Assembly (NCBI GenBank): GCA_028278245.1
Contig: JANQEQ010000082.1
Coordinates: 1 to 64,000 of the forward strand
DNA: 64,000 nucleotides
Direction: 5' to 3'
Source of the DNA: Phycisphaerales bacterium
Lineage (GTDB): Bacteria > Planctomycetota > Phycisphaerae > Phycisphaerales > SM1A02
Within the stretch, counting starts at the first letter, position 1, and each line of letters starts with the position of its first letter. The position numbers and the translations under genes were made by a program. Positions 23,498-43,230 of this stretch are shown piece after piece. The notes beneath the pieces were generated by a model that was given only the letters and a program-made list of their open reading frames with translations, was not told the DNA's origin and ran no database searches.

Positions 23498-23713
23498 TCA
23501 ATTACTCGCCTGCGACTCTCCGGAAACCTTTTCGGAGTTACTCAACTTGTCACGAACTTCTGGTATGTCGACCGGTTCATCGTCGTGGAGTATTCGTGCT
23601 GCGGGAGTGTCAAGATCATCGAACTGCCCACTGCGTACCGCCCAGATGAACGTGATCACCGCAATGATCGCGATCAGAAGGGCAAGGGGGAAGATGATGT
23701 AAATCACTGACAT
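23498..23713 (-). CDS. ccoS: cbb3 oxidase maturation protein CcoS
   Basis: Predicted 71-residue single-helix membrane protein needed for cofactor insertion into cbb3 oxidase. The family pattern is clear: an N-terminal membrane helix ([20 protein letters not shown]), then [15 protein letters not shown] with the conserved DD-L-x-P motif. It overlaps ccoI by 10 bases and is the last gene of the respiratory locus. Confidence 0.93.
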
Positions 23714-26207: not shown

Positions 26208-27089
26208 TTACTCATCAGGTTTCTCCACTGGTTCGGAACTCTCATCATGAGCAGGCTGATTTTCACTTGCGGAAGAATCATCCTCTTCCTGGCAACAGGG
26301 AGGGATATATTTTGTGTCAGAAGTTTCTTCCTGACGGATTTGCTGCAGGACTGCTTGGGTGGACGTATCGCCCTCCCCCACCTGCGGAAGCTGTGCATGG
26401 GCATTGACATCGTATCCGCGGACAATAACGGCAATCCCGACGAAGATCAGCAGACCAGCCATGAGCGCAGGCAAATGTTTCCGAACCGGGCTGAGAAATG
26501 ATTTCACCCCAACCCCGACGGCAGCAAGTATCGGAGTCGTACCGGCCCAAAATGAAATCATCACCGCAGCGCCGACCAATGGCGATCCAGTACCGGCTGC
26601 CCAGATGACAAACAAATACAACCAGCCGCATGGCAGAAAAATCGCCAGCAGACCGATGATCAACGCTCGCGTCACCGGATGTCGACGTTGAGCCGAAGCG
26701 TGTCCTTTGGCAAAAAGAGTTTCCAGTGGTTTGGGTACCCCCAGATGTCTGATCCGCACACCAAGAATGCGCAGCAACATAACCAGCCCAAACGCCACCA
26801 TGAACACGCCGGCGATAATCATTGCAATACGCTGAAAACCGAAAACAGTCCCGCCCCAGTTGGTCGCAGCACCTAAAAATCCACCGATGACTCCGAGGAT
26901 TGTGTAACTGATCAGTCTTCCGCCGTGATAGGCACATTGCACGCCGATATGTTGGGCAACACCACGGTCTTCAGTCCCCACACAAAAAATAACAAACGGA
27001 CCACACATCCCCGCGCAGTGCAGTGATCCGACAATGCTCAGTCCGAAAACCGCCCAGATCAATGACAGGAACACTGGATCGAACATCAT
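26208..27089 (-). CDS. TauE/SafE family membrane protein of the cbb3 locus
   Basis: Predicted 293-residue membrane protein of the sulfite exporter TauE/SafE superfamily, of the UreH-like type often found in cbb3 assembly clusters. The first helix carries GSLHCAGMCGPFVIFC, whose Cys/Met/His residues could handle metal. About six helices follow. The C-terminal tail is polar and contains a YIPPCCQ motif and an acidic stretch. Start and stop overlap or abut ccoH and ccoI, so it is part of the same transcript. Copper or heme delivery is a better guess than sulfite export, because of the context. Confidence 0.82.
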   Translation of the reverse strand: MMFDPVFLSLIWAVFGLSIVGSLHCAGMCGPFVIFCVGTEDRGVAQHIGVQCAYHGGRLISYTILGVIGGFLGAATNWGGTVFGFQRIAMIIAGVFMVAFGLVMLLRILGVRIRHLGVPKPLETLFAKGHASAQRRHPVTRALIIGLLAIFLPCGWLYLFVIWAAGTGSPLVGAAVMISFWAGTTPILAAVGVGVKSFLSPVRKHLPALMAGLLIFVGIAVIVRGYDVNAHAQLPQVGEGDTSTQAVLQQIRQEETSDTKYIPPCCQEEDDSSASENQPAHDESSEPVEKPDE

Positions 27090-27580
27090 GGACCCCTTTT
27101 TCTCGGGATGGTGACCGTTTTTCGCAAGGTATCCACGTAAAGATCATCATCGCGCTTGATGGTCAGTCTAAACTCCCACACTCCGCTGCGTCTAAGCGGG
27201 AGCACTGCGGTGTAGAGACCATCGCTGATATGTTCCAGTTCCGCACGGAAAATGTTCTTTGCTCGTGCATTGTGAAACATATCGATGTTTACCTCGCCAT
27301 CGAGGATAGGTTTACCCCATTTGTCAAACACCGAGAGTTGCACCAGCACATCGCCAAATTCACCAACGGGTGACGTATCAAGATCCACAGTCCAGCCCAG
27401 TTGTTTGCTGGTTTGCTGTTGCAGCTGAATGCTATCCCAATCGCGAGCTTTCTGTTCGTAGTCAGGTTCCAAGGCAAACGATGGATCGCTCACGGCAATG
27501 ATGATCGCAATCCCGTGGATGATGACGGACATGCTGAGCAAACCCACAACCATTCCAATCCAGAACACTTTGGGACTCAT
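27086..27580 (-). CDS. ccoH: FixH/CcoH family protein
   Basis: Predicted 164-residue membrane-anchored protein involved in cbb3 oxidase assembly or stability. One N-terminal helix (FWIGMVVGLLSMSVIIHGIAIIIA) is followed by a periplasmic beta domain. The family signature appears as DPSFALEPDYEQKARDWD and, later, SGVWEFRLTIKRDDDLYVDT. It overlaps ccoG by four bases and the TauE/SafE gene by four. Confidence 0.88.
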   Translation of the reverse strand: MSPKVFWIGMVVGLLSMSVIIHGIAIIIAVSDPSFALEPDYEQKARDWDSIQLQQQTSKQLGWTVDLDTSPVGEFGDVLVQLSVFDKWGKPILDGEVNIDMFHNARAKNIFRAELEHISDGLYTAVLPLRRSGVWEFRLTIKRDDDLYVDTLRKTVTIPRKRGP

Positions 27581-28998
27581 GATCCCGAACCTCCCGGCGA
27601 TTCCTCTGATGATGGTGAGTCGGCTCCGCCAAACAACGGCCCGATCATGCGGTGAGTGTATGTTTTATCGAACGTATCATCATCGGTAATACGAACGTTG
27701 ATCTCCGCACGTCCGCTGGAAAACCGATGACGAGGTATTGTGACATGGAGTGTGGCACTGCCGGATTGATTGCTTTCCAATATCAACGGCAAATCGACAC
27801 TGCTGACCTTTGCATCCTCTACCACGGAGATGTCATAGGAACGGGATTCGGTTGTGCGGTTGCGAACAGAAATTAAAACAAGGTTCGTCACATTACCGTC
27901 ATCAGACAGGGTATAGGGATTGGCCCGGTTACGCAGGAACGACACATCAGCAGTACCGGTATTTACCAATACGACACCGAACAGTACCAGCACAACACAG
28001 AGTATCACCGGATAAATGACGACTCTTGGCCGCAGGAAACGGCGCTTGCCGGACTCCATCGCTTCCTGAGAACTGTAGCGGATCAATCCCAGCGGCTTGC
28101 TGAGTTTTCTCATAATTGAATTGCAGGCATCAATGCACTGGGCGCAACCAACGCATTCCATCTGCAGACCATTACGAATGTCAATCCCGGTAGGACAAGT
28201 CAAAACACAAAGCGAACAATCAACGCAATCACCAAGGTTTTCCTCTTTTCGTTTCTTCCCACGAGGTTCACCGCGTTTACTGTCATAACTGATAATTAAC
28301 GATTGTCGATCCAGCAGCACTGACTGGAAACGCCCATACGGACACATCAGTGTGCAGACCTGTTCGCGGAAGAGGCAGAAATCAAGCATCATCAAAATCG
28401 TAGTGATTGCCACAACGATGAAAGCAGTGGGATATTCGATCGGTGAACGTTGCATCCAGCCGAGGAGTGTCTCCGCTCCGACAAAGTACGCAAGGAATGT
28501 GTGCGCAAGAAACACGGAGATGATGAAGAACACCAGATATTTTGCCGCTTGTCGCAGGGGTGGTATCGAGGTCTTGGCACTGTGATAGCTGCGTCCAGCA
28601 AACAAGCGTTCAATCGGCCGGTATACCAATTCCATGTATACAGTTTGAGGACAACCCCAACCACACCAGACCCGACCCAGCAGAGCGGTGATCAGAAATA
28701 TGCTGATGAAGATCGACAGTATCAGCAGAGCAAGAAGGAGCGTATCTGTCGGAAGAAAGGTTGCACCGAAAAACGTAAACTCACGGTTTGGAATGTCCAG
28801 AAGGATCGGCGGCTTACCGTTGATCTTCAGATAAGGCAAGGCCACAAATACGATTATGAGCAGGTAGCCAATAATTCTGCGCCAGATGAGGAATTTGCCC
28901 GGGGAGAGACGGGGGCGCAACCAGCGCCGTGAACCGTCTTTGTTCAACGTGGATAAAACTCGTTCTTCAACTTCAGGAATATCGTATACAGATGACAT
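27577..28998 (-). CDS. ccoG: cbb3 oxidase accessory ferredoxin-like protein CcoG
   Basis: Predicted 473-residue membrane protein with Fe-S clusters, reported to take part in copper reduction during cbb3 assembly. Five membrane helices are visible, with RVWCGWGCPQTVYMELV after the second and EQVCTLMCPYGRFQ before the cluster domain. Two 4Fe-4S motifs follow: CVDCSLCVLTCP and CVGCAQCIDACN. A C-terminal Ig-like domain follows. I chose the ATG at 28998 (MSSVYDIPEVEE), which has AGG at good spacing; the longer frame starts with TTG. The gap to ccoP is 94 bases, the largest break inside the cluster. Confidence 0.94.
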   Translation of the reverse strand: MSSVYDIPEVEERVLSTLNKDGSRRWLRPRLSPGKFLIWRRIIGYLLIIVFVALPYLKINGKPPILLDIPNREFTFFGATFLPTDTLLLALLILSIFISIFLITALLGRVWCGWGCPQTVYMELVYRPIERLFAGRSYHSAKTSIPPLRQAAKYLVFFIISVFLAHTFLAYFVGAETLLGWMQRSPIEYPTAFIVVAITTILMMLDFCLFREQVCTLMCPYGRFQSVLLDRQSLIISYDSKRGEPRGKKRKEENLGDCVDCSLCVLTCPTGIDIRNGLQMECVGCAQCIDACNSIMRKLSKPLGLIRYSSQEAMESGKRRFLRPRVVIYPVILCVVLVLFGVVLVNTGTADVSFLRNRANPYTLSDDGNVTNLVLISVRNRTTESRSYDISVVEDAKVSSVDLPLILESNQSGSATLHVTIPRHRFSSGRAEINVRITDDDTFDKTYTHRMIGPLFGGADSPSSEESPGGSGS

Positions 28999-29092
28999 AA
29001 AAGAAACCTGAATAGTGTGGGCAGTATCCAAACACTAGGTCTCTGGAGATGAATGTGTCAAGGTGTTACAAAATCGTACAGGGGTGATACTG

Positions 29093-29692
29093 CTAACCTT
29101 CATCAGCAGGCGGATTCGGATCAGGCCAATCGCTGACCTCCTCACCCTGAGGTTCCTTCCCGGGGACAGGATTGTTTTTTAATTGCCCGACATAGGCTGA
29201 GATGAGAACGATCTGAGTCTCATTTAACTCTTTGTTCCAACTGGGCATTCCTTTATCGACAAGACCATCGGTAATGATCTGGGCAATATCCGTGAGCGAT
29301 TTGACATTGATCCAGTAATTGTCTGTCAGATTTGGCCCAATATCGCCGGACGCATCGGCGCGGTGACATTGAGCGCATTTCCCCTTGAACAGGCTTTGCA
29401 TTGCCTTCATCGCCGCTTCATTGGACATCAGTTCGTTAATCGTTGCTTCATCGGCATGCAACTCTCCGAACAGTTCCGGCAGCAGTTCATTGAACGCCAC
29501 CACTTCAGCATCATACTGATCCCAGATAGTTCGACCTTCTGCGTAGTGATATCGAATTACATACGGGATGCAAAAGAGGATGGTGAGAATAAAAAGCCAG
29601 TTCCACCAACCGGGTACGGGATTATCGTATTCCTCGATCCCATCGTATACGTGATCTAGGACTTTATCTGTTTCGATTTCTTGCTTAGCCAT
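29093..29692 (-). CDS. ccoP: cbb3 oxidase subunit III CcoP (single heme c)
   Basis: Predicted 199-residue membrane-anchored cytochrome c that feeds electrons to CcoO/CcoN. The N-terminal anchor carries the typical YDNPVPGWWNWLF motif. There is one heme site, CAQCH; proteobacterial CcoP has two. The likely axial Met is in GMPSW. The ATG at 29692 has GAGGA upstream and overlaps the CcoQ-like gene by 8 bases. The single-heme form occurs in other non-proteobacterial cbb3 oxidases. Confidence 0.92.
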   Translation of the reverse strand: MAKQEIETDKVLDHVYDGIEEYDNPVPGWWNWLFILTILFCIPYVIRYHYAEGRTIWDQYDAEVVAFNELLPELFGELHADEATINELMSNEAAMKAMQSLFKGKCAQCHRADASGDIGPNLTDNYWINVKSLTDIAQIITDGLVDKGMPSWNKELNETQIVLISAYVGQLKNNPVPGKEPQGEEVSDWPDPNPPADEG

Positions 29693-29918
29693 CAATGTAA
29701 TCCTCATCGTGTACAGGACTGGATACAGCAGGTCGCGGACGTGGCTCCACGACCTGTTGATCATCGAGGGGAATCCTCGCAGCCTTTTGATAGCTGGAGG
29801 ATCGGGTGAGCAATAAACGAAGAACCACCAGCAACCAGATCGTCAGAAAAATGGCCAATCCGATCACTTTGAAAGTGAGCGTGATGTCTGCCAGAATGTG
29901 ATAGCCGGTGAATATCAT
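29685..29918 (-). CDS. ccoQ: CcoQ-like small cbb3 subunit
   Basis: Predicted 77-residue protein with one membrane helix (VIGLAIFLTIWLLVVLRLLL) and a charged tail with QKAARIPLDD. Position between the CcoN-CcoO gene and ccoP, size and topology identify it as the CcoQ-type subunit; sequence alone would be weak. It overlaps ccoP by 8 bases and starts 15 bases after the fusion gene. Confidence 0.75.
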   Translation of the reverse strand: MIFTGYHILADITLTFKVIGLAIFLTIWLLVVLRLLLTRSSSYQKAARIPLDDQQVVEPRPRPAVSSPVHDEDYIDG

Positions 29919-29933
29919 CTTTATTCCAGTTGA

Positions 29934-32900
29934 TCAGTCAGTTGCAGCAACGGTTTCAGTCGCCTCTTCTTCAGGAACTTCATTTCCGATATCAGTGCCA
30001 AGCCGCAGAAGATAGGCAACCATAGCGATCACTTCCTTATCCTCAAGGTCGCTATCGGCGTACGTTGCATCTTCACCCACAAGCCTCTGGAATAATTCCG
30101 CTGCCTGCTGACGTGCCAGTTCCTCAGCCTGTTCAATCTCAGCATCGGTGTAGGGCACACCCAACGTTGCCATTGCTTTGACTTTGCCCGGTATGGCGCT
30201 GAAGTCCAGTTCGTTTTCGAGCATCCACGGATAATTCGGCATGATCGAACCGGGACTTGTGTCCAACGGTCGGTTCATGTGACGCACATGCCATGCCACG
30301 GAAGTATTGGTTCTGCCGATGCGGTGAAGATCCGGGCCAATCCGGCGTGAGCCCCACTGGAATGGGCGGTCGTAGACGAACTCACCCGGCTTGGAATATT
30401 CGCCGTACCGCTCTGTTTCGTGACGCATCGGTCGAATCATTTGTGAGTGGCAGTTGAAACATCCCTCAGCAAGGTAGATGTCGCGGCCAGCAAGTTCGAG
30501 CGGTGTGTACGGCTTGACGGCAGCAATCGTCGGCACATTGGTTTTGATCAGGAAGGTGGGGATGATCTCAAACAGAGATGCCACGACGATTGCGATTGTG
30601 ACCCAGATCGTGAACTTCAGAGGCAGGCCTTCCCAGCCCCGGTGCCAACGCAGCTGGGCCAGAACATCGAATTTCTGAGCCATTGCCCCAGCATGGGGAT
30701 TGCGAGGTTCTGCCGGTGCCGGTGGGGTGTAAGTCTTGACCAGTGCGGGTGCCTGCTGTTCCTGCAAATCGTAGGTCTTCGGCCTGCCCACCCATGTCAT
30801 GACGAGATTGAAGAAGCAGAGCAATCCACCAAGGAAGTAGAGTACTCCACCACCGACGCGGATCCAGTAAAACCATTCCAATCGAGTAAGCGTCTCCACG
30901 AAGTCACCGTATAACAGCATGCCCATATGATCGAACGCACGCCACATCAGGCCTTGTGTCAAGCCGGCAGCATAGATTGGGATGATGTACAGAAGCATAC
31001 CAATCGTTCCGATCCAGAAATGCGCCGCCATCATCTTCTTGCTGAAGAGGTTGGTCTGGAACAGTCTGGGCATCAACCAGTAAGCCATGCCGAAGCTCAT
31101 AAATCCGACCCAACCCAACGTCCCGGCATGGACGTGTGCAATCGTCCAGTCAGTGTAGTGGGACAGGGCGTTAACGGATTTGATTGAGAGCATCGGTCCT
31201 TCGAACGTACTCATCCCGTAGAAGGTGATACCCAACACGTAGAATTTAAGAATTGGATCTTCCGCAACTTTGTTCCAAGCACCACGCAGGGTCAGCAAGC
31301 CATTGAGCATACCGCCCCAGGAGGGCATCCAGAGCATCAACGAGAAAAGCATACCCAACGTTGAAAGCCAGGCTGGAATTGCCGTAAAGTGAAGGTGGTG
31401 CGGGCCCGCCCAGATGTAGATAAATACCAGAGACCAGAAGTGCAAAATTGAGAGTCGGTAACTGAACACCGGTCGATTCGCCGCCTTGGGAAGGAAGTAA
31501 TACATCAAGCCCAGGAACGGGGTGGTGAGGAAAAAGGCGACGGCGTTATGCCCATACCACCATTGCATGAAAGCATCCTGTGCACCCGCGTAAATCGGAT
31601 AGCTCTTCAGCCAGGTAACAGGAATTGAGAGATTGTTGAAGATGTAGAGAACGGCAATGGCGATGATGGTCGCAATATAGAACCACAATGCAACGTACAG
31701 GTGTCTTTCGCGGCGTTTGGCAATCGTGCCGAAGAAGTTGATCGCAAAGACGACCCAGACAAGCACCACTGCGACATCAATCGGCCACTCAAGCTCAGCG
31801 TACTCCTTAGCCTGCGTGTATCCCAGCGGATACGTAATGGCAGCTGCGACGATGATCAACTGCCAGCCCCAGAAATGGATGTTGCTGAGCAGGTCGCTGA
31901 ACATTCGAGCCTTCAGTAACCGTTGTGATGAATAGTAAACCGCAGCAAAGATAGCATTGCCGGCAAAAGCAAAGATCGCAGCGTTCGTGTGCAGGTGTCT
32001 CAGTCGCCCAAAGGTCAGGAAGGGAAGATCCAAATCGAGGTTCGGTACGACCAGAAGAAGTGCAGCGATCACACCCACCAAAAGGCCAACCAATCCCCAG
32101 ACGACCGTAGCGAGGAGAAACTTGCGCGAGATCTTGTCATCGTAAACAAAGGTCTCCAGATTGCCCGAGCCGACATTTGCTGATGTGTCTGTTGTCTCTG
32201 TCATCTGTGTATGTTCCTTGGCTGCTAAGGAATGTTCACTCTGATCCTCTTGAATATGCGGAATTTCGGAATCCTGTGGCAAATGGGGTGTACCGGCAGT
32301 TTCAGCGTCTATACCTGCGCTTATCTCTGCAGCACCCTGGAAGTCATAAAAATCTGTTACAGCAGGAGATTCCTCGAAATTATCTGCTGGGGGAGGCGAT
32401 TCACATTGCCACTCCAGGCTCTTGCCATCCCAGACATTACTGGTAGCTACTCGTCCTTGCTTGTGAGCGAGAAGTAAGTTGCCAATAGCGGCGATAATTC
32501 CAAGTATCAGGATAAATGAGCCGCCACATGATAAAAGGTGAAGGTTTTTATAGAGTGCAAGTTCCGCCCCCGCCAATACCTCATAATCCCAGAATCGAGC
32601 CGGCATACCCAGACAACCAAGGATAAATCGCGGGAAAAAGGCCAGGTTAAAACCAACAATAGTTGCGAGTAGGCCCAGTCGCCCAACTGAATCGTTGTAC
32701 ATCCAGCCGGTGATCTTCGGCCACCAGTGATACATACCCCCTATCAGAGCAACTAATACCCCTCCTACAAAAATATAATGAAATTGCGCAACCGCAAAAT
32801 GTGTGTTGTGGAGATAAACGCCGGTTGCCGGGGTTGCCAGGAATAAACCTGCTAAACAACCGATCGTGATATGAATAATGAACGCCAATGCACACAACAT

Positions 32901-33944
32901 CGGGGTGTTGAACGTGATCGAGCTTTTATTCAGTGTGGCCAGCCAGTTAAAAATAATCACGATGATCGGGATGTACATCGTAAAAGCGAGGGCAGACAGG
33001 GCCGCATTGATTTCCGGAGTCTGGCCCGCAGTAAACATGCTGCTACCCCACGCCAGAAGACTGCAGACAGCCGTTATCATCATGCTGATGACGATGGCGC
33101 GATAGCCGAAGATGTGCTTGCGGCCGTGGACGGAAATAATCTCACTCACGACGCCCATGGCCGGTACAATCAGGACATAGAGCATCGCATACAGCGCAAA
33201 TTTCAGCAGGTGGCTGAACAATAAAGGATCACCTGTGACTGCTGAAACTGATTCGGTTCCCGCTGCCACAGCTGCTCGTTCTTTGAGCAGAAGAACAAAT
33301 GCCACAGCAAGCACTGGAGCAGTGATGAAATGGATCCATGCGGTGCCATAAATTGACCAGACAAAAAGAGGCATGCGTGACCACTGCATGTCCGGCAAGC
33401 GAATCCGGTGTATCGTCACCAGGAAATTGAATGTATTAAGAAAAGTCCCCGCAGTGATTGCCAGGACACCGTAAATCATTGCATTTGCGCCGAGGTGTCC
33501 CGCCGACAGAGCATAGGGGATGGAGAAGGTCCATCCCGTATCGATAGCACCGGCATTAACTGAGATGGTCATCATCACCACCCCCAGCAGCCATAGATGA
33601 AAACTCAAGCGATTCAGTGCCGGATAAGCGAGGCGTTGCGCCCCCAGCATGATTGGGAGAAAGAAGCTCCCCAGCGCTGCTGGAATCGAGGGGATGATGA
33701 CGAGGAAAACCGAAATGATCCCGTGCAATGTGAATGCACTTCCATATTTTTCGATCCCCAATGATCCCTCGCCCGGTGAGGAAAGCTCCAATTGCATTGC
33801 CAGTGCAATTAACCCGCCTGCGATCAGAGTCACGACAATGCCGATGAAATACATCACGCCGATGCGCTTATGATCGCGCGTAAGGAGCCAGGACATAATT
33901 CCTTTTTCCCGGGAGAGATAATTTTCGCCGTTCTCTGTCGTCAT
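29934..33944 (-). CDS. Fusion of a degenerate aa3-type COX1 with CcoN and CcoO
   Basis: One uninterrupted 1336-residue frame in three parts. Residues 1-500 are an aa3-type COX1 homologue with about twelve helices. Heme a ligands are kept (His74 in FTLHG; His389 in QFHY). The CuB site is gone: GHPEVY reads LYAMLY (251-256) and HH reads Ser301-Ser302 in WGSSMF. The heme a3 histidine is Gln387. Around these sites the alignment to ordinary COX1 needs no gaps. Residues 515-580 are an acidic linker. Residues 590-1055 are CcoN with all ligands: His652, His799, His849-His850, His937, His939, and the helix VII Tyr843. Residues 1090-1336 are CcoO with heme c site CFNCH (1162-1166). An internal ATG at codon 581 (32204) has AAGGA ten bases upstream, so separate CcoN-CcoO may also be made. 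CcoN-CcoO fusions are known; this N-terminal addition is not one I recognise. It probably forms the cbb3 oxidase core with an added low-spin heme relay. Confidence 0.93.
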   Translation of the reverse strand: MTTENGENYLSREKGIMSWLLTRDHKRIGVMYFIGIVVTLIAGGLIALAMQLELSSPGEGSLGIEKYGSAFTLHGIISVFLVIIPSIPAALGSFFLPIMLGAQRLAYPALNRLSFHLWLLGVVMMTISVNAGAIDTGWTFSIPYALSAGHLGANAMIYGVLAITAGTFLNTFNFLVTIHRIRLPDMQWSRMPLFVWSIYGTAWIHFITAPVLAVAFVLLLKERAAVAAGTESVSAVTGDPLLFSHLLKFALYAMLYVLIVPAMGVVSEIISVHGRKHIFGYRAIVISMMITAVCSLLAWGSSMFTAGQTPEINAALSALAFTMYIPIIVIIFNWLATLNKSSITFNTPMLCALAFIIHITIGCLAGLFLATPATGVYLHNTHFAVAQFHYIFVGGVLVALIGGMYHWWPKITGWMYNDSVGRLGLLATIVGFNLAFFPRFILGCLGMPARFWDYEVLAGAELALYKNLHLLSCGGSFILILGIIAAIGNLLLAHKQGRVATSNVWDGKSLEWQCESPPPADNFEESPAVTDFYDFQGAAEISAGIDAETAGTPHLPQDSEIPHIQEDQSEHSLAAKEHTQMTETTDTSANVGSGNLETFVYDDKISRKFLLATVVWGLVGLLVGVIAALLLVVPNLDLDLPFLTFGRLRHLHTNAAIFAFAGNAIFAAVYYSSQRLLKARMFSDLLSNIHFWGWQLIIVAAAITYPLGYTQAKEYAELEWPIDVAVVLVWVVFAINFFGTIAKRRERHLYVALWFYIATIIAIAVLYIFNNLSIPVTWLKSYPIYAGAQDAFMQWWYGHNAVAFFLTTPFLGLMYYFLPKAANRPVFSYRLSILHFWSLVFIYIWAGPHHLHFTAIPAWLSTLGMLFSLMLWMPSWGGMLNGLLTLRGAWNKVAEDPILKFYVLGITFYGMSTFEGPMLSIKSVNALSHYTDWTIAHVHAGTLGWVGFMSFGMAYWLMPRLFQTNLFSKKMMAAHFWIGTIGMLLYIIPIYAAGLTQGLMWRAFDHMGMLLYGDFVETLTRLEWFYWIRVGGGVLYFLGGLLCFFNLVMTWVGRPKTYDLQEQQAPALVKTYTPPAPAEPRNPHAGAMAQKFDVLAQLRWHRGWEGLPLKFTIWVTIAIVVASLFEIIPTFLIKTNVPTIAAVKPYTPLELAGRDIYLAEGCFNCHSQMIRPMRHETERYGEYSKPGEFVYDRPFQWGSRRIGPDLHRIGRTNTSVAWHVRHMNRPLDTSPGSIMPNYPWMLENELDFSAIPGKVKAMATLGVPYTDAEIEQAEELARQQAAELFQRLVGEDATYADSDLEDKEVIAMVAYLLRLGTDIGNEVPEEEATETVAATD

Positions 33945-33953
33945 GGGTGGTAC

Positions 33954-34988
33954 TTACTCTTGCGTTTGGGCGATTTCCTCAAGCGGATTCCCCTCTTCAT
34001 CTACCACCTCATCAAGGCGACGGATGAAATCAATCAATGCAACAATTTCACGATCACGTAGCTGCCCGGTGAAGTTCGTCATTTCCTGGTCTTTGTAACC
34101 TTTCACCACTTCCACCTGGGGTGAAAGAAGTGAACGACGAATGTATTCCTCATCCACAATGATTTCACCGCCACCTTCCAATGGGCGTGCTTTCCCCCAT
34201 AGTGAAAACGTTTCGCGGAATGATGGACCAATCTTTGACGATCCATCTAGCGAGTGGCATTCCAGACAGTTGCCGGTGAACAGGCGTAATCCCGCCTTGT
34301 ACAATTCGTCATTCGTATAAGCATCCAGCCAGTATGCGACGCTGTCGAGTGCCTCGACGAATGCCTCACCTTCATACGCAGTGACAATCGCATTCATGCC
34401 AATGCAGTTTTCTCCACTGTATTCAACATTGTTTAGTTGGTACTGACCCGGAGAAGCCTCAAACCACAATGATGTCTCGCGAGCTGGCAGGACATCCTGT
34501 TTGATGCGGAAAGCCGGTAGTGAAAGTGAATACGTCATGTCGCGCGAGGTCAGCGTCAAACGTACCGGCTGATTGGCAGGAATATATAGCTGGCCGTCAT
34601 CCTGGATTTTCCCGTTGCGATGTTCGAAAATCCACGATGAATCTTGCGCCGTGACATAAACGTCGTATGCGTGTTGTGGTGAAGTGACCAGCTTGGCATA
34701 TCCCTTCAATCCTGTTGCACACAGTATGACCATCAGGATAACCAGTACACCGGTTACGATGGTTTGCAGAAGCCAACTGCTCTTTGCCGACTTGATCGGT
34801 GTTACTCCCGCCCGCCTGTCGCTCCTAATCACCAGCGCAACGAGTATTCCGACAATGACTAAAAGTATAAGAATGGAAATGATCAATGTAAGGCGGAATG
34901 AATCATCAACAATCTGCATTGCCGGTGCACTGGAATTCATCGGTGTTGCGGAGAGAAAAACAGATTGGATCGTGTTTGAAAGAATCAT
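33954..34988 (-). CDS. COX2-like cytochrome c subunit lacking the CuA site
   Basis: Predicted 344-residue membrane protein related to caa3-type COX2. Two N-terminal helices (about 34-55 and 75-93) precede a cupredoxin domain (105-205) and a cytochrome c domain (225-330) with CLECH at 241-245. The cupredoxin framework is clear (PAFRIKQDVLPARETSLWFEA), but the CuA ligands are replaced: the first His is Tyr153, the two Cys are Asn187 and Ser191, and the second His is Cys195. Glu189 and Met198 remain. Without CuA it cannot work as normal COX2. The start overlaps the upstream gene by four bases (ATGA). It is encoded directly before the degenerate COX1, so the two probably pair. Confidence 0.9.
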   Translation of the reverse strand: MILSNTIQSVFLSATPMNSSAPAMQIVDDSFRLTLIISILILLVIVGILVALVIRSDRRAGVTPIKSAKSSWLLQTIVTGVLVILMVILCATGLKGYAKLVTSPQHAYDVYVTAQDSSWIFEHRNGKIQDDGQLYIPANQPVRLTLTSRDMTYSLSLPAFRIKQDVLPARETSLWFEASPGQYQLNNVEYSGENCIGMNAIVTAYEGEAFVEALDSVAYWLDAYTNDELYKAGLRLFTGNCLECHSLDGSSKIGPSFRETFSLWGKARPLEGGGEIIVDEEYIRRSLLSPQVEVVKGYKDQEMTNFTGQLRDREIVALIDFIRRLDEVVDEEGNPLEEIAQTQE

Positions 34989-35320
34989 CGTTCCCCTGCC
35001 CCTTCCCTGGCTTCACGGATAACCGCTTCGATAGCCAGATCAACTGGAATAGCCAGTGAACGCTCACCTTCAACACGGACCTCCCAATGCGGTGGAGCTT
35101 CCAGTCGTAAGGTTTGTCCTGTTCTCAGCGTCTGCAACGCAGGTGAATACATCGTTTCCTGACGAGATTGATGAATCTCCTCGCGCTCCTGACGGAAGAT
35201 TGCCGTTGCGAACATGGCTGCTGATGCAATCACAATCGCGCTGATAATAATCAACGTTAAACCAACACCTTTATGTGCTCTGGGAGGTTTCTTCGGGATT
35301 GGTTTCAGCTCTTCTGTCAT
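34985..35320 (-). CDS. Small membrane protein between actF and COX2-like gene
   Basis: Predicted 111-residue protein that I do not recognise firmly. One membrane helix (GLTLIIISAIVIASAAMFATAIF) follows a Pro/Lys-rich N-terminus. The outside part ends with IPVDLAIEAVIREARE, which recalls a conserved tail pattern in small proteins of caa3 and complex III loci. It overlaps the COX2-like gene by four bases and follows actF by 35, so it is surely co-transcribed. A structural subunit at the complex III/oxidase interface is a guess. Confidence 0.7.
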   Translation of the reverse strand: MTEELKPIPKKPPRAHKGVGLTLIIISAIVIASAAMFATAIFRQEREEIHQSRQETMYSPALQTLRTGQTLRLEAPPHWEVRVEGERSLAIPVDLAIEAVIREAREGAGER

Positions 35321-35355: not shown

Positions 35356-36648
35356 CTAAATATTCTCAAACGAAAGTGATTCAGATAGACGTGGATCCTG
35401 CATCGGCATCAGGGCACACTTGCGCAGACGAAGCGCGGTGATGGCTATGAATACTCCCAGCATTCCCACCAAACAGGTCAGATCCAACAAGTGTGGTGCG
35501 AATCCGAGGCTCCCGCTATCTGCCGTCAACTGTTCCAGTTCCTGGTACGTCTGCGCATTTGCCAGAGCATCTGCAGGTACGTGCGGCATGACAAGCCAAT
35601 ACACGTCCACAAAATGCATGAGCAGCATCCAGAGTGCAATCAGTGTCAAGATGAGTTTCGCACGCTTGGTGTGTTTGGTGATCAGCAGCAGGAATGGAAG
35701 GACGAAATGCCCTGCCAAGAGCACAATGCTGACTGTCTTCCACGCCCCGAGTTGTCGAGCAATGTACCAGCCGGTCTCTTCGGGTATGTTGGCGTACCAG
35801 ATCAGCATGTACTGACTGAAAGCGATATACGCCCAGAAAACAACACCGAAAGCAAATAAGAGTTTGCCCGCATCCTGATAATGTTCGAATGAAATCTCGT
35901 TTGTGAGTTTACCGAAACGCTGCGTGAAATACATCATCACACAGAGCAATGCGAAGAAACCACAACAGCTTCCGGCAAAGAAATACACACCGAACATCGT
36001 GCTGAACCAGTGGGCCTCAAGTGACATGATCCAGTCGATCGAAGCGAAGGTCTGCGTCAGTGCATACAGGATCACGGCAATCGGCGCCCAGCGCTGCAGA
36101 CGATGCGTGAATTGAACATCACCCGTTTCATCCTGCTTCACTGAATTCCTGTAGAAGTAATAACCAGCCAATCCCCAGATAAGGAAATAAACGACCGCGC
36201 GAATCGACCAGAATTCTGGATTGAGGAACGGTGATTTTGCCTTCAGTACCGGATCATGACGCAGATGCGTGGGATCAGCCCAGTCATACAGAATCGCACC
36301 GTTACCGGTCATCATGATGTAAACAACCGGCACAAAGAGAATCCACAACCAGGTCAGGTTTGCCGCCACGGCTTCTGCCAGACGCCTGATCACGACGCTC
36401 CACCCCGCGCGTGTCAGGTGCTGAATAAGCACAAAGAACAACGCGCCAAGTGACAAAGTCAGTACGAAAATGAACGATGTCAGGTACGAACGGAAAAGCT
36501 GCTCCCATCCGTTCTCGCCACCTCGAACCAGTGGAAATATGACACTGACTGCGAGTCCCAGCAAACCGATAATCAAAGCAGGCACAGCGATCTTTGTCGC
36601 AAGACCACCCAACCGAAGTTGATCGTTATTTGCCTGGTTCAAGTTCAC
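35356..36648 (-). CDS. actF: Alternative complex III subunit ActF
   Basis: Predicted 430-residue membrane protein with about ten helices, the shorter NrfD-like quinone-side subunit of alternative complex III. Family landmarks include LSLGALFFVLIQHLTRAGWSVVIRR and YFFRNSV-like loops, then TFASIDWIMSLEAHWFSTMFGVY and FLLLITKHTKRA. It starts with GTG overlapping the actE stop (GTGA). The long N-terminal extension and hydrophilic C-terminus are normal. Confidence 0.92.
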   Translation of the reverse strand: MNLNQANNDQLRLGGLATKIAVPALIIGLLGLAVSVIFPLVRGGENGWEQLFRSYLTSFIFVLTLSLGALFFVLIQHLTRAGWSVVIRRLAEAVAANLTWLWILFVPVVYIMMTGNGAILYDWADPTHLRHDPVLKAKSPFLNPEFWSIRAVVYFLIWGLAGYYFYRNSVKQDETGDVQFTHRLQRWAPIAVILYALTQTFASIDWIMSLEAHWFSTMFGVYFFAGSCCGFFALLCVMMYFTQRFGKLTNEISFEHYQDAGKLLFAFGVVFWAYIAFSQYMLIWYANIPEETGWYIARQLGAWKTVSIVLLAGHFVLPFLLLITKHTKRAKLILTLIALWMLLMHFVDVYWLVMPHVPADALANAQTYQELEQLTADSGSLGFAPHLLDLTCLVGMLGVFIAITALRLRKCALMPMQDPRLSESLSFENI

Positions 36649-37367
36649 TCTTCGTCTGCCTCCTCTTCTTCGTTATTGCTGGGAATGAGGTTGACGGTCT
36701 CAAGATTATCTCGATCTGATTCCGGGATGTCGGTCAACTCGGCATTCTGACTTCGTTGCAGTGCTCGAACCCAGGCAACGATCGCCCAGCGATCTTCCAC
36801 CGTGATTTGGGACTCCAAAGCCGGCATGTTGTTTTTGCCGACGGATATTGTGTTGAAGATCTCCCCTACCACCTGCTGGTGAATTGTTAACTCATGCAGA
36901 TTCCGCGGAGGCACCCATGATGTTCCCTTCCCCAGCCGGGAGTTTACGAGTAAATCACGAGCAACCTGGTCGACGATTCCATCGCCATAACCAGCCAGCC
37001 CGTGACATGATTGGCAGTAGATGTCGAAGCGTTCTCGGCCACGCTGGAGGAATTCTCTGTTGACCGTAATCTGTGAGGGGAAGCTGGTTGCCCAGGTACC
37101 GTTCAAGGTGCCGCTTGTTAGATGCTCACTATCCACAATTTCGCCACGCATCACAGCTCCATCTACTGGAGGTCGCATGGCTCGATTGTCATCGAACAAT
37201 GGATTTTCATGTTGAGTACGGAACTTGCCCTGGTTATCCATATCCTGAATGAAATGGATGCGCGGTTGCGGTTTTTTGGATGTGCGCATGTAAGCTGTAA
37301 TTGCCGGCGGAAGGAGCGCTGCGGCAATGAGAATCAGCGTGATGTAAATGAAAATCCTGGGTATCAC
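36645..37367 (-). CDS. actE: Alternative complex III subunit ActE (monoheme cytochrome c)
   Basis: Predicted 240-residue lipoprotein-like or membrane-anchored cytochrome c. A hydrophobic N-terminus (IFIYITLILIAAALLPPAI) anchors it outside the cytoplasm. One heme site CQSCHGLAGYGDG is followed by a likely axial Met in NNMPALE. The start is set at GTG 37367, two bases past the actD stop, because GGAGG lies six bases upstream; a longer frame begins with TTG. The C-terminus is acidic. In complex III it carries electrons toward the oxidase. Confidence 0.9.
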   Translation of the reverse strand: MIPRIFIYITLILIAAALLPPAITAYMRTSKKPQPRIHFIQDMDNQGKFRTQHENPLFDDNRAMRPPVDGAVMRGEIVDSEHLTSGTLNGTWATSFPSQITVNREFLQRGRERFDIYCQSCHGLAGYGDGIVDQVARDLLVNSRLGKGTSWVPPRNLHELTIHQQVVGEIFNTISVGKNNMPALESQITVEDRWAIVAWVRALQRSQNAELTDIPESDRDNLETVNLIPSNNEEEEADEE

Positions 37368-37368
37368 A

Positions 37369-37962
37369 CTAATCCTCCAGCATCTCAATGGATATTGGAT
37401 CGAGTTCTTTCAACATCGCCTCAGTCTGATCCTGAGAAAACTGCGGATCACGAACCTCAATCACAACGAAAAAGCGATCCTCGCTGGCCCGAAGAAACTT
37501 CCGATTCTTCAACGTGGGGTGATAGAGCCGAGGCAAACCATTCATGAGTAACATCAATGCCACGGTGGATACGGCAGCAAACAGGATGGTCGATTCGAAA
37601 ATGACCGGAATCCATGCCGGCCCGCTCATCATGGGTTTACCACTGATCAGGAAATCGTAGCCGCGCACAAAAACGATCAACCACATGTCAAAGGTGGAGG
37701 CATTCGTAAACCATTGCAGAATTAAACCGAGTGTGCACCCGGTCAGCCCGGCAAAGAATACCATCACCGGCAGTATTGTGGGCTTGATCCCCATCACCTT
37801 ATCCAGACCGTGTACAGGGAACGGTGTGTGACAATCCCAATGGCGATATCCGGCTGCATGAACGTGTTTCGCTGCCTGCATGATTTTTGCCGGCGTATCG
37901 AATTCAGCCATGATTCCCCAAGGGCGAGGATGATCAGATTGTTGTGTTACCAGTTGACTCAT
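37369..37962 (-). CDS. actD: Alternative complex III subunit ActD (DUF3341)
   Basis: Predicted 197-residue membrane protein with two helices (about 65-90 and 115-140). The DUF3341 signature is visible: [17 protein letters not shown], then [22 protein letters not shown]. It has no cofactor. It overlaps actC by four bases. The C-terminal cytoplasmic tail ends in an acidic MLED. It is a structural subunit in solved complexes. Confidence 0.93.
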
Positions 37963-39365
37963 GCCTTAGCCTCCCCATGTTTTTGATCATGGTGAGGGTC
38001 CGCCTGCGGCATCACGGCTTTGACCTCGGAAATTGCAATCACCGGCAGGAATCGAATAAACAACAGGAACAGCGTCATAAACAGTCCGAAGCTCCCGATG
38101 AGCATCCAGATATCAATCCACGTGGGGGTGAAGTATCCCCAACTGCTGGGCAGAAAATCCTGTTCGAGCGAGAGCACGATGACAAACCGTTCAAACCACA
38201 TCCCGACATTGACCGCCAGGCACACGATGAACATCAATGGAATACTTCTGCGGATCTTCTTGAACCAGAAGAGTTGCGGACTGATAACATTGCAACTCAC
38301 CATGATCCAGTATGCCCAGGCATGTTGGCCGAAGGCGCGATTGATAAACGCAAATGCTTCGTAATGCGCGCCGGAATACCACGCGATGAAAAATTCCATC
38401 ATGTAGGCAAATCCCACCATTGAACCCGTCACGAGGATGATCTTGTTGATGTTCTCCAGGTGACGCATGGTGATAAAGTTTTTCAATCCCCAGATCTGGC
38501 GTGACGGAATCGCCAGGGTATTCACCATGGCAAAGCCACTGAAGATGGCACCGGCAACAAAATAAGGCGGGAAGATCGTCGTATGCCAGCCGGGTAGTTG
38601 AGAGACGGCAAAGTCAAACGACACGACCGAATGCACCGACAGCACCAGCGGTGTTGCCAGCGCCGCCAACAGCAGGTAGGCGCGTTCATAACGGTGCCAG
38701 TGCCTCATGCTCCCCCGCCAACCGAGTGAGAACAATCCGTAGATGATCGCCTTGAATCGACTGGTGGCTCGATCGCGCAGCGTTGCCAGATCGGGCACCA
38801 TGCCAACATACCAGAACAGCAACGATACGGTGAAATATGTGCTGACAGCAAAAACATCCCACAACAACGGGCTGCGGAACTGGGGCCACATTCCCATCTG
38901 GTTCGGTATCGGGAAGAGCCAGTAAGCAAGCCAGATGCGACCGACATGAATGCCCGGGAATAGTCCGGCGCAGATAACCGCAAAGATTGTCATCGCTTCG
39001 GCGAAACGGTTGATTGCCGTTCGCCACCTCTGGCGGAACAGGAAGAGGATCGCGCTGATCAGTGTTCCGGCGTGGCCGATACCAACCCAGAACACAAAGT
39101 TAACAATTGGAAATCCCCACATCACCGGATTTTGATTGCCCCAGATACCCACACCTGTGATAAACAGGTAAGCCAGCAATAGCACCAGTAAGCCTGCCAG
39201 CATGTTGGCAATAATAAATGACACATACCAGGCTTTGGGTGGTTTCGGAGCTTCGTTAACCCTGCAGATCTCTTCCGTCACCGAGGCGAAATCATCGTGA
39301 TTCAACACCAGAGGTGCCCGTTGTTTGGGATCTTCAACCGTGTTGTCAATCGTTACGCTGCTCAT
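37959..39365 (-). CDS. actC: Alternative complex III subunit ActC (NrfD-like)
   Basis: Predicted 468-residue membrane protein with ten helices, the larger NrfD/PsrC-like subunit, which holds the quinol site and a proposed proton path. Landmarks are [20 protein letters not shown] at the first helix, then [24 protein letters not shown], and later [18 protein letters not shown]. The frame extends 78 codons upstream, but the ATG at 39365 overlaps the actB stop as TGATG and gives a normal N-terminus. The upstream part is antisense-free overlap with actB and not coding in this frame. Confidence 0.93.
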
Positions 39366-42300
39366 CAGTGATCGCTCCCTCCATTGGTAGAGGGATGCTC
39401 GGTGGATTGATGCTCGGTGGGAGCTTGTGCATTCGGTGCCTGGTTTCGTAAATTTGCCATATATAACAGGCGCGGTTTGACGTTCAGTTCTTCCAACATT
39501 GCGTAGGAACGCTGGTGCCTGTGCAATTGAGATATGCGGCTTTCCGGATCGTTCAAATCGCCAAAGACGATGGCTTGCGCCGGGCACGTCTGCTGACAAG
39601 CGGTTTTTATTTCGCCATCGTGTATCACCGGAACATCGCTGCGTTGATCAGGATCACTTTGCACCCATTCGTTCTTGACTCTGATCTTCGTTTCGGTAAT
39701 ACGCTGGGTGCAGAGCGTGCATTTTTCCATCACACCCCGCATTCTCACAGTGACTTCCGGATTGAACTGCATCTGGTGGAGTTCATGTGCCTCGGCCTGT
39801 GGTTTCGTGTAGTAGTCAGTATCCACATGCATCAGGGAACCGGGTTGTTCGCGATGTGGTTCCCGCCGATGGAAATCAAAGAAGTTGAATCGGCGAACCT
39901 TATACGGACAGTTGTTGGAGCAATATCGTGTGCCGACGCAACGGTTGTAGACCATGACGTTCAATCCATCCTCGTCATGAATCGTTGCGGCAACCGGACA
40001 GACCTGCTCACAAGGAGCATTCTCGCAATGATGACAGGTCACCGGCTGGAGGGCTACGCTTTTCAGTTTGTTCGCATCGTAGTGATCATCGGTCTGATCG
40101 AATTTGAAGTAACGATCGATACGCATCCAGTGCATCTCCCGGCCCTGGATAACCTGATCCTTACCGACGATCGGGAAATTGTTTTCCGCCTGGCATGCCG
40201 TCACACACGCGCCGCAGCCAGTGCAGGCGGACAGGTCGATCGACATCGCCCAACGATGCTTGGAGTTATTGAGATTGTTTTCCTCCCACAAGGACAGAAG
40301 ATGGGGAGTATGGGTGCCGTGCTTGGCAAAGTCAGGATGATGTTGATATTCATCAAGATTTGCTTCCCGGAATAATCTGGGTAGGCGCTTCTGAATATCT
40401 TTCCCCGCTACGTGCTCCACATCTATGGCATGATGATCCTGCGTCGTCCCGAGCGGATAATTTGAACCCGTTTTCTGTAACGTCATTCCACCGGCAAACC
40501 ACATGGCGTCAACCGTTCGCAATGGTGATATATCCGTACCGGCTCCAGTGCATATACGACCGTCGAACTTTCGACCATAGCCCAGTGATATTGTCGCCGA
40601 TTCATCATATTGCCCGGGAACAATGATCACGGGTGCTTCGATGGAGGATGAGCCGATCGTGATGCGTACAACATCACCGTTATCCAGCGCCAAGTCTCCG
40701 GCTTTGGCGACACTGATTTGCAGAGCATTATCCCAGGTGAGCTTCGTCAAAGGATCGGGTAATTCCTGTAGCCACCCATTGTTGGCAAAACGTCCATCGT
40801 AAACCGCACTTGAGGGAACAAAGGTGATCTCCATCGAGCCTTGCGGGGTCGATGACCGGTGATCAATCATTCCCTGTAAGCGCTGTGCAATCTCACTCCG
40901 GTTCATCTCGGGTCGCTGAATAGGCCACTCGCTGCCGGCTAGCAAACCATCATGTAATGTCTGACGCCATTTTGATTCTGATGCAGCAACACCAAGCGAC
41001 TTATTGAATGTACTGCGAACAATTTCCTGACCGGTCCGCACCTCCTCGCCACACAACACCGCCAGGATTTCAATTGCGCTGCGTGTATCGAAGAGCGGTT
41101 CGATTAACGGTTGGGCAATGCTGATCGTGCCGTCATACCCTCTACCGTCAGACCATGCTTCAAGATAATGAGAACGGGGTAGGTGCCAGTTACACAATAC
41201 CGAGGTTTCATCCTCGTAAGTACCGAGACGTATTGTGTTACTTACTTTCGAAAGTGCTGCTGTAAATCCAAAATCAGCGGGAGCGTCATACACGGGATTG
41301 CCGCCGATGATCAGCAGTGTCTCCACCTGTGAACCACTCATCGCATCAACAAGTGATTGAAGCGAATCGGTATGAGTCTCCTGTTGAGAAAGTTCTGTGT
41401 AATCGACGGTATGACCGACGGCGCCTGTTGCCTGATTTAATACGTGTGCAAGCATATGCACTTCAGCCGGCTGCGCCGATCCGGCAACAAATACCGCACC
41501 ATGCTCCTGCGAATTTACATCGGAAACGATCTGATCCAGCAGAGTCTGCAACTCGTTCTCAGGTAGATTCGTTGAGATCGACTCTTCGGTAAGCTGCTCA
41601 ATTCCCTCTGGCTGATTTTTCAGTAGCTGCCTGGCCAATCGAGCTGCAATGACTACAACATCTTTGCGTTTCAGAGCAACACGATGATCAGCATTCGCGC
41701 CCGTGAGGCTCAACGCACTTTCAAACATGTAGAGCCGACTCATTGAGCCATTCGGCTTATCCGCAAGACGTGTGGATGCAAAATCACGCGTGTACCGTAG
41801 TGCGGAAGGATGAGCGGAAAGGAAATCACAATCCAACGAGACGATGATATTTGCCTGATCAAACTTGTAGTGCGAACGATAAGGCGTGCCGAAGGCTGCG
41901 TCAGAACCCACACGCTCGTTATCATCACTGATCGACTCATACTCATGCCACTGTGATTTCGGGTAGAGTTGAGCCAGACGTTGTTTCATTCGTATCGTGC
42001 TTGGCGAGGCTGTTGCTTCACTGAGTACACAAAGTCCTTCGCCATTCTTCGATTTCAGATCATTGAAATGTGTTGTTGCCCACGTATCAAACGCGCCCCA
42101 GTCCGATACTTCCCCGCTTCGTGTGACAGTGCGGCTGCGATCAGGATCGTAAAGATCCAGGATACTTGCCTGGATGAGAGCGCTGGCTGCACCTCGTGAA
42201 TCAGGGTGATCGGGATTACCTTCCACCTTGATCGGTCGCCCGTCGTAACTCGTTGCTAACAAACCGGTTGCGACACCGCCCAGCTCCAAGCATGTGGCGT

Positions 42301-42583
42301 ATTGTGTGGTTGATCCAGGAATGTAACCTTCCGGACGGTTGGCATAGGGGACTATTTTTTCCTCCGGCCAACGTCGACAACCGGTCAATCCCAAACCGGC
42401 AAGAACAAATGAAGCTCCCATGATTTTCAGGAAGTGCCGGCGTCCCTGACCATCTTCCAACATCTCCGCAGCACCAGCGGGAAATTCACGATGCAGAAAC
42501 TCACGGAATTGCGGATTATCCGTCAGGTCATCAAGGCTTCGCCAGTATTCCCGGCCGGCATGTCGTTGGCTTATCGATGACAC
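39365..42583 (-). CDS. actB: Alternative complex III subunit ActB (Fe-S, molybdopterin-type fold)
   Basis: Predicted 1072-residue extracytoplasmic subunit. The N-terminus has the short [10 protein letters not shown] motif, then RRHFLKIMG and LGLTGC, a Tat-type signal with a lipobox Cys. Residues 60-740 have the molybdopterin-oxidoreductase fold without an obvious cofactor site, as is usual for ActB. Residues 780-1030 are a ferredoxin domain with four cluster motifs: [38 protein letters not shown] and CTLCTQRI with a later CQQTCP. The start is set at GTG 42583 with AGGA nine bases upstream; it overlaps actA by 13 bases. Normal length. Confidence 0.93.
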
Positions 42584-43230
42584 GTGGAACAATCCTGTGA
42601 AGGGTCTATGGAATGCAGTTTGCGAAGTTGATGGCGTTCATCAGCCGTCAATTCAACCATCGGGTCATAAGCGAGATTTGTGATCTCACCCAACGGACGC
42701 AGATGTGGCTCGGGATTGCGATGGCAATTCAAACACCACGCCATGCTTAAAGGCTCATGTTGATACACAACCTCCATCTGATCAACGCGACCATGACATG
42801 AAACACAGCCGACACCTCGTGAAATATGGGCTGCATGATGAAAGTAAACGTAATCCGGCAGGTCGTGAACGCGCACCCAGGGGATCGATTCACCACGCTG
42901 GTATGTTTCATGCAGGAGTTGGAGTTGATCGCTGTCCTTCTTGATCTTCTCGTGGCAATTCATGCACGTTTGTGTTGGTGGAATCGCAGCCTTGGCAGCA
43001 ACCTCTACCGTGTTATGGCAGTAGCGGCAATCCATGCCAAGCTGACCGGCATGCACAGCATGACTGAAGGGAATGGGTTGTTCCGGCTGATACCCTACAT
43101 CGGTTGCCTTCGGGCTGAATCCATAAGCAGCCAGCAATACCACATAGAGAGGCACAACCGTGCTGACCGCAATGAGTGTCGGAAGCAGCATATTGCTCCA
43201 TTTGGGAAACACGTAATGCTGCCGATTCAT
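42571..43230 (-). CDS. actA: Alternative complex III subunit ActA (pentaheme cytochrome c)
   Basis: Predicted 219-residue membrane-anchored multiheme cytochrome. A single N-terminal helix (LLPTLIAVSTVVPLYVVLLAAY) is followed by five CxxCH sites: CRYCH, CMNCH, CVSCH, CLNCH and CSTCH, the last one residue from the C-terminus. Five hemes is the normal ActA count. It is the first act gene and passes electrons from ActB to ActE. The upstream gap to the zinc-ribbon gene is about 105 bases and probably carries a promoter, though I cannot place it. Confidence 0.94.
   Translation of the reverse strand: MNRQHYVFPKWSNMLLPTLIAVSTVVPLYVVLLAAYGFSPKATDVGYQPEQPIPFSHAVHAGQLGMDCRYCHNTVEVAAKAAIPPTQTCMNCHEKIKKDSDQLQLLHETYQRGESIPWVRVHDLPDYVYFHHAAHISRGVGCVSCHGRVDQMEVVYQHEPLSMAWCLNCHRNPEPHLRPLGEITNLAYDPMVELTADERHQLRKLHSIDPSQDCSTCHR

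Follow-up and report, generated by a model that had tools for sequence, protein, structure and literature searches.

Two heme-copper oxidase subunits stripped of their metal sites, encoded between ACIII and cbb3 genes in a Phycisphaerales bacterium, may form a non-catalytic adaptor

Introduction

In Rhodothermus marinus, alternative complex III (ACIII) works with a caa3 oxidase: the cytochrome c domain of its subunit II receives electrons straight from ActE, and subunit I/III lies beside ActC in a map of low resolution (PMC5928083). In the supercomplex of F. johnsoniae, ACIII contacts its oxidase through subunit III (PMC8361435). The part of a Phycisphaerae genome survey considered here finds that Phycisphaerales have ACIII where others have bc1 and, for the SM1A02 family, reports 40-60% of genomes with either a caa3 or a cbb3 oxidase and six with both; that part makes no mention of non-catalytic subunits (PMC11266412). 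In the literature that we searched, for the most part outside subscription journals, neither a COX2/COX1 pair devoid of CuA and CuB nor a fusion of COX1 to CcoN is described.

It is by their metal ligands that subunits of heme-copper oxidases are usually identified. We analysed a locus where these sites have been lost while the proteins, and selection on them, remain. It lies in a stretch of 64,000 nucleotides of an SM1A02-family Phycisphaerales bacterium (assembly GCA_028278245.1, contig JANQEQ010000082.1, positions 1 to 64,000), hereafter the window, on which an earlier note had been made from the sequence alone. Elsewhere in the window, positions 52628-57025 encode a histidine kinase of the HWE type, which has 1465 aa and numerous PAS domains.

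Results

The locus is read on the minus strand from 43230 downwards, in the order ActA, B, C, D, E, F, a small ORF, the COX2-like gene (COX2L) and a 1336-aa ORF. ActA (42571..43230) is a pentaheme cytochrome c without the sixth-heme domain, and is followed by ActB (39365..42592), ActC (37959..39599), ActD (37369..37962), the monoheme cytochrome c ActE (CQSCH; 36645..37388) and ActF (35356..36648). These six genes occur in the expected order and have homologues at ordinary identity in relatives, which identifies the operon as that of ACIII. The small ORF of 111 aa (34985..35320, minus) has weak positional homologues in some relatives and no family match.

COX2L (33954..34988, minus, read from 34988 to 33954) starts at an ATG and encodes 344 aa, made of a transmembrane hairpin (residues 24-102), a cupredoxin domain without CuA (about 106-212) and a cytochrome c domain (about 213-344). 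The protein is recognised by the Pfam models COX2 (29 bits, over the cut-off) and Cytochrom_C, and its cytochrome c domain matches structure 1w2l with 65 bits. It scores far below the cut-offs of the quinol oxidase models, reaching 39.7 bits against 266 for CyoA and 34.9 bits against 241 for QoxA. When it is aligned with 38 normal homologues, the former CuA site (34404..34532, minus) is seen to have lost all four of its His/Cys ligands: Tyr153 (34530-34532) stands for a His, Asn187 (34428-34430) and Ser191 (34416-34418) each for a Cys, and Cys195 (34404-34406) for a His, all on the minus strand, while Glu189 and Met198 are retained. The canonical residues (H, C, C, H) are present at these four positions in 38/38 normal homologues. 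The heme c site is intact, with the CLECH motif at residues 241-245 (34254..34268, minus) and the axial Met303 conserved in both degenerate genomes, i.e. this one and the second genome described below. The earlier note had read this gene as a COX2 that lacks CuA and keeps its cytochrome c domain; Pfam and alignment agree, the ORF lies where it had been placed, and each residue it had named is exact. That note was silent on the minus strand, on the COX1-CcoN-CcoO fusion and on the position between ACIII and cbb3 operons. The model of COX2L that AlphaFold2 built from an alignment of two sequences was of poor quality (mean pLDDT 38.5).

Directly behind COX2L, the 1336-aa ORF (33944 to 29934, minus) is composed of a COX1 domain, a second COX1-family domain (CcoN) and a FixO/CcoO domain. 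Its COX1-like part, COX1L (residues 1-530; 32355..33944, minus) retains 12 hydrophobic segments, both low-spin heme ligands (His74 and His389), W138 and one propionate Arg (R450). As the earlier note had stated, CuB is gone: alignment shows its three histidines replaced by Y252, S301 and S302, and the heme a3 ligand is lost as well (His to Q387). The D-channel Asp has become R104, the K-channel Lys I330 and the Arg contacting the heme a formyl group, at the position of bovine Arg38, Q51. These three losses are common to both degenerate genomes, so that the proton channels and the formyl contact must have gone before the lineages diverged. The second genome still has H252 and H302, two of the three CuB histidines, and erosion of CuB thus continued after the split. 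Its second low-spin ligand falls in an assembly gap. The placing of heme c near heme a, which the earlier note had raised, is not borne out, since the heme A and heme O synthases are undetected in both genomes and the formyl-contact Arg is lost in both; for the same reasons, any low-spin heme remaining in COX1L is probably heme b rather than heme a.

The rest of the ORF encodes an intact cbb3 oxidase core. The NCBIfam CcoNO model scores 1189 bits on the fused ORF, over its cut-off. The CcoN and CcoO parts match cbb3 oxidases of solved structure (588 bits to 9g6b). CcoN (residues 596-1060; 30765..32159, minus), fused in frame to COX1L, has its metal-binding motifs GHNAV, GPHHLH and HVHAG in place; the CcoO part (residues 1101-1320; 29985..30644, minus) carries one heme c motif (CFNCH). 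They are followed on the same strand by CcoP (29093..29764), CcoG (FixG-like; 27577..29031), CcoH (FixH; 27086..27580), a 293-aa membrane protein that reads as DsbD/CcdA-like (26208..27089) and has the same position in relatives, and a copper P-type ATPase that reads as CcoI-like (23704..26136), also conserved in position. Classical CcoP is a diheme protein; the CcoP of the window has 223 aa and a single CxxCH, and relatives align with it over almost its full length. A search of the whole genome revealed two COX1 domains (COX1L and CcoN) and one COX2, which leaves cbb3 as the sole heme-copper oxidase in the results. The relatives possessing cbb3 show the same cco gene order, but away from the ACIII operon, and the joining of the ACIII and cbb3 genes is thus a derived state.

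The reading frame is open across the junction between COX1L and CcoN. Normal COX1 tails end about where the CcoN of the window would start, which indicates that the junction is nearly direct. Both the end of COX1L, with its 12 hydrophobic segments, and the beginning of CcoN should, given the folds of these proteins, lie in the cytoplasm, and the fusion is therefore topologically possible. Separate translation of CcoN would also be possible from an internal start (32202..32219, minus), where an ATG (32204-32202) is preceded ten bases upstream by the Shine-Dalgarno-like AAGGA.

We found one other genome with the CuA loss in a survey that took in 181 family genomes as well as samples at the level of order, class and phylum: CP070772.1, the Phycisphaerales MAG bin220 (G031), which belongs to a second genus. 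There, as in the homologues that the earlier note had proposed to look for, the loss is again found beside a degenerate COX1. The COX2L of bin220 has Tyr, Gly, Ser and Phe at the four positions. The CuA motif is canonical in 46 of the 48 loci checked, both exceptions being at the bin220 locus, and the relatives that we examined have a normal COX2 and COX1 behind their ACIII operon. No third case emerged when COX2L served as query against the samples from order, class and phylum, a search in which divergent independent cases could hide among normal COX2. Two other observations concern these loci. At L006 (G020) and L030 (G058) the COX2 match in the search table contains one in-frame stop (TGA and TAG, respectively), possibly because the match runs past the gene end or because the gene is broken. 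At L071 (G014:C1:41500-61000) there is another COX2/COX1 pair, which is more distant and has its ligands intact, with no ACIII genes in the stretch examined; several family members carry such a second COX2.

The window genome and bin220 come out as sisters, with 100% support, in each of three trees (COX1, COX2 and ActF). This pair is nested inside the normal group in the ActF and COX2 trees; in the COX1 tree its branches are very long, at 3.6 and 2.2 where the median is 0.25, and its placement is unsure, while its ActF branches are ordinary. Subunits I and II share descent with A-family oxidases, as indicated by the trees and by their position in the operon. The earlier note had held that normal CuA ligands in close relatives would refute its reading; nearly all relatives in the family are indeed normal, but the sister genus shares the loss, and the loss of CuA is thus the derived state of one lineage and not of one genome.

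bin220 also bears on the fusion. One of its stretches runs into 100 N after about residue 337 of COX1L, and another starts directly after 100 N at residue 205 of CcoN and continues with the gene order of the window. The two pieces agree with the same fused arrangement, short of proving it, and it is the reading frame of the window genome that establishes the fusion. The sequence of CP070772.1, given as a single contig, contains runs of exactly 100 N (L032, i.e. G031:C1, and L105), which in one stretch are about 5.0 kb apart, and genes that break off in one piece do not resume in the neighbouring one; the record has the look of contigs strung together, in which gene order over the gaps is unreliable. 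The COX1 neighbour that the earlier note had called degenerate is so, and in the window it is also the N-terminal part of a COX1-CcoN-CcoO fusion.

The losses are not evenly spread over the two proteins. Among the near-invariant periplasmic residues of COX2, four of the six CuA ligands are changed in both genomes, against 3/38 of the others (Fisher p = 0.003). One of these three is Trp117, which by its spacing we take to be aligned with bovine Trp104, the Trp of electron entry, and another adjoins a CuA ligand. The figures for changed residues in COX1 are 10 of 11 in the catalytic, proton-channel and formyl set and 61 of 189 outside it (p = 0.0002, a descriptive value, as the residue set was chosen by known function after viewing the alignment). 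Between the window and bin220, pS is 0.72-0.73 (saturated) and pN is 0.30 for both COX2L and COX1L. An exact dN/dS would be unreliable with saturated synonymous sites and with GC contents of 51% in the window and 65% in bin220; we used instead pN/pS, which is 0.41-0.42 for the pair, and the contrast between domains. With pN of 0.22 and 0.24, the cupredoxin and cytochrome c domains of COX2L are under much the same constraint as the ACIII subunits (0.19-0.23), and only the transmembrane hairpin is loose (0.46). With approximate domain borders, the cytochrome c domains of the window and bin220 are 66% identical, against about 46% between a normal member and its relatives. COX1L is relaxed, with 54% identity within the pair against 79% between normal members; ActF and CcoN identities are ordinary. 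The losses concentrate on the CuA path and on catalytic and proton residues, and the pair is still under purifying selection. The selection check that the earlier note had called for thus turned out in its favour, with frames open in both genomes.

These changes go together with the loss of other genes. The normal cluster (locus L111) comprises the Act genes, a small ORF, SCO, COX2, COX1, COX3, COX4 and COX3, then CtaB and CtaA. We compared ten genomes, namely the eight nearest normal relatives, the window genome (G000) and bin220. CtaA (heme A synthase), SCO and COX3 are each present in 8/8 normal relatives and were undetected in both degenerate genomes in this search. CtaB (heme O synthase), told from other UbiA proteins by all-against-all similarity, is also found in the eight relatives and undetected in the two degenerate genomes, where the UbiA proteins all belong to other UbiA groups. 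The window genome is 89% and bin220 79% complete, so that one single absence means little; the pattern of loss is the same in both, and the places of SCO and COX3 are empty within the assembled operon of the window.

Discussion

The earlier note had seen in the parallel losses of two partner proteins a new role shared by both. We show that the losses are linked, common to a second genus, selective and accompanied by purifying selection; the shared new role itself is an inference. We think it somewhat probable that an A-family (caa3-type) oxidase has been retired here, and that its COX2 and COX1 persist as a non-catalytic adaptor from ACIII to cbb3. In its stronger form, on which our judgement is evenly balanced, this would be a new assembly, where a complete though non-catalytic A-family shell of COX1 and COX2 is the electron-entry and docking subunit of a C-family oxidase, cbb3, covalently joined to the catalytic subunit and coupling it directly to ACIII.

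With no heme-copper oxidase detected apart from cbb3, this should be the one that ACIII feeds, unless a further one has been missed. The heme c of COX2L would receive electrons from ActE, as in the caa3 relatives, and its next acceptor would be a heme c in CcoP or CcoO in place of CuA. COX1L would hold COX2L in the membrane, may dock against ActC, and would be tethered to CcoN by the fusion; any heme remaining in it would probably be of the b type and structural. Electrons would flow from menaquinol through ACIII, COX2L heme c, the CcoP/CcoO hemes and CcoN heme b to heme b3-CuB and oxygen. The simplest chain appears to be one where the old acceptor, COX2L heme c, was kept and the downstream partner changed. 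The adaptor is supported by the second genus with the same loss, forming one clade amid normal members, and by the joint absence of CtaA, CtaB, SCO and COX3 from both genomes when all are present in the eight comparison genomes. The selective change, the purifying selection, the intact cbb3, the R. marinus-like ActA and a topologically possible fusion point in the same direction. Against it, docking in F. johnsoniae occurs via subunit III and COX3 is absent here, so that docking by COX1L is not certain. The fast evolution of COX1L also fits partial decay, and the assembly gap of bin220 at the junction, the possible separate translation of CcoN and the incompleteness of the genomes (89 and 79%) have to be kept in mind.

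An unlikely alternative is that the pair is a relic in slow decay after a switch to cbb3, COX1 persisting as the N-terminal part of the CcoN frame and COX2 through upstream translation in the same operon. The long COX1L branches beside ordinary ActF ones, the CuB histidines lost after the genera had split and the prior loss of COX3, SCO, CtaA and CtaB would all be expected of such a relic. However, both frames are open although synonymous sites are saturated, pN/pS is well below one, all heme c residues are retained in a domain better conserved than among normal members, and the surrounding unneeded genes have been deleted when COX2L and COX1L have not. We give less credit still to an electron wire or store, where COX2L heme c would pass electrons to the low-spin heme b of a redox-active, b-type COX1L and from there to CcoN or a membrane quinone site. 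The retention of H74, H389, W138 and R450 agrees with it, and the loss of the formyl-contact Arg in both genomes fits a swap of heme a for heme b; but by analogy with the caa3 architecture, the distance between heme c and the buried low-spin heme is, without CuA, probably too great for electrons to pass quickly, the second heme ligand of bin220 sits in a gap, and no route is evident from COX1L to the CcoN hemes.

That a chimeric contig or a wrong base should have joined two operons and created the fusion seems very improbable. Admittedly, the window genome is fragmented (180 contigs) and the junction is seen in one genome only. A junction error, though, could delete a stop codon and would not account for the ligand losses, and in bin220, an independent MAG, CuA is lost as well and the missing genes are the same ones. 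There, moreover, the COX1L piece ends and the CcoN piece starts inside the expected fused gene, the latter followed by CcoO, P, G, H, the DsbD-like gene and CcoI. We attach the least credence of all to a new catalytic role, for instance another metal site in COX2L made of Cys195, Met198 and Glu189, or a COX1L that catalyses something new. The COX2L of the window does have Cys195 and Met198, yet the replacing residues differ between window and bin220 (N/G, C/F and I/A at 187, 195 and 196). A new metal site in COX2L was rejected on this ground, bin220 having a Phe at 195.

If the adaptor is real, a terminal oxidase has been swapped across families while the old docking platform and cytochrome c entry were kept, and the locus would be a natural case of catalysis separated from supercomplex assembly. 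Annotation by Pfam or gene neighbourhood would credit the window genome with an aa3/caa3 oxidase that is very probably not made.

All the parts of this locus belong to known families, and what is new is their state and combination. Like the ACIII-caa3 system of R. marinus (PMC5928083), the window has an ACIII operon followed by caa3-type COX2 and COX1, a cytochrome c domain on COX2, a pentaheme ActA without the sixth-heme domain and a monoheme ActE. Unlike it, its COX2 has no CuA, its COX1 neither CuB nor the heme a3 ligand, and COX3 is missing; oxygen reduction would, as read from the sequence, fall to the cbb3 encoded directly behind. Among the hallmarks of a caa3-type oxidase, common descent is thus preserved, but CuA, the CuB and heme a3 histidines, the D and K channels and CtaA/CtaB are not found. 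The cbb3 part resembles C-family oxidases with fused CcoNO, CcoN and CcoO being intact and CcoP, G, H and I following as in relatives; it differs from those known in bearing a degenerate A-family COX1 on the N terminus of CcoN and in lying behind ACIII and COX2L. The cupredoxin domain without CuA ligands recalls subunit II of quinol oxidases (CyoA, QoxA). These have no heme c and work with a catalytic COX1, while the window retains heme c and its COX1 is predicted to be non-catalytic. Another parallel is the bc1-cbb3 supercomplex of Rhodobacter capsulatus, where complex III is physically coupled to cbb3 with a membrane-bound cytochrome c (PMC8361435). In the coupling proposed here from the genes, ACIII takes the place of bc1, and the cytochrome between the two complexes would once have been subunit II of a caa3 oxidase.
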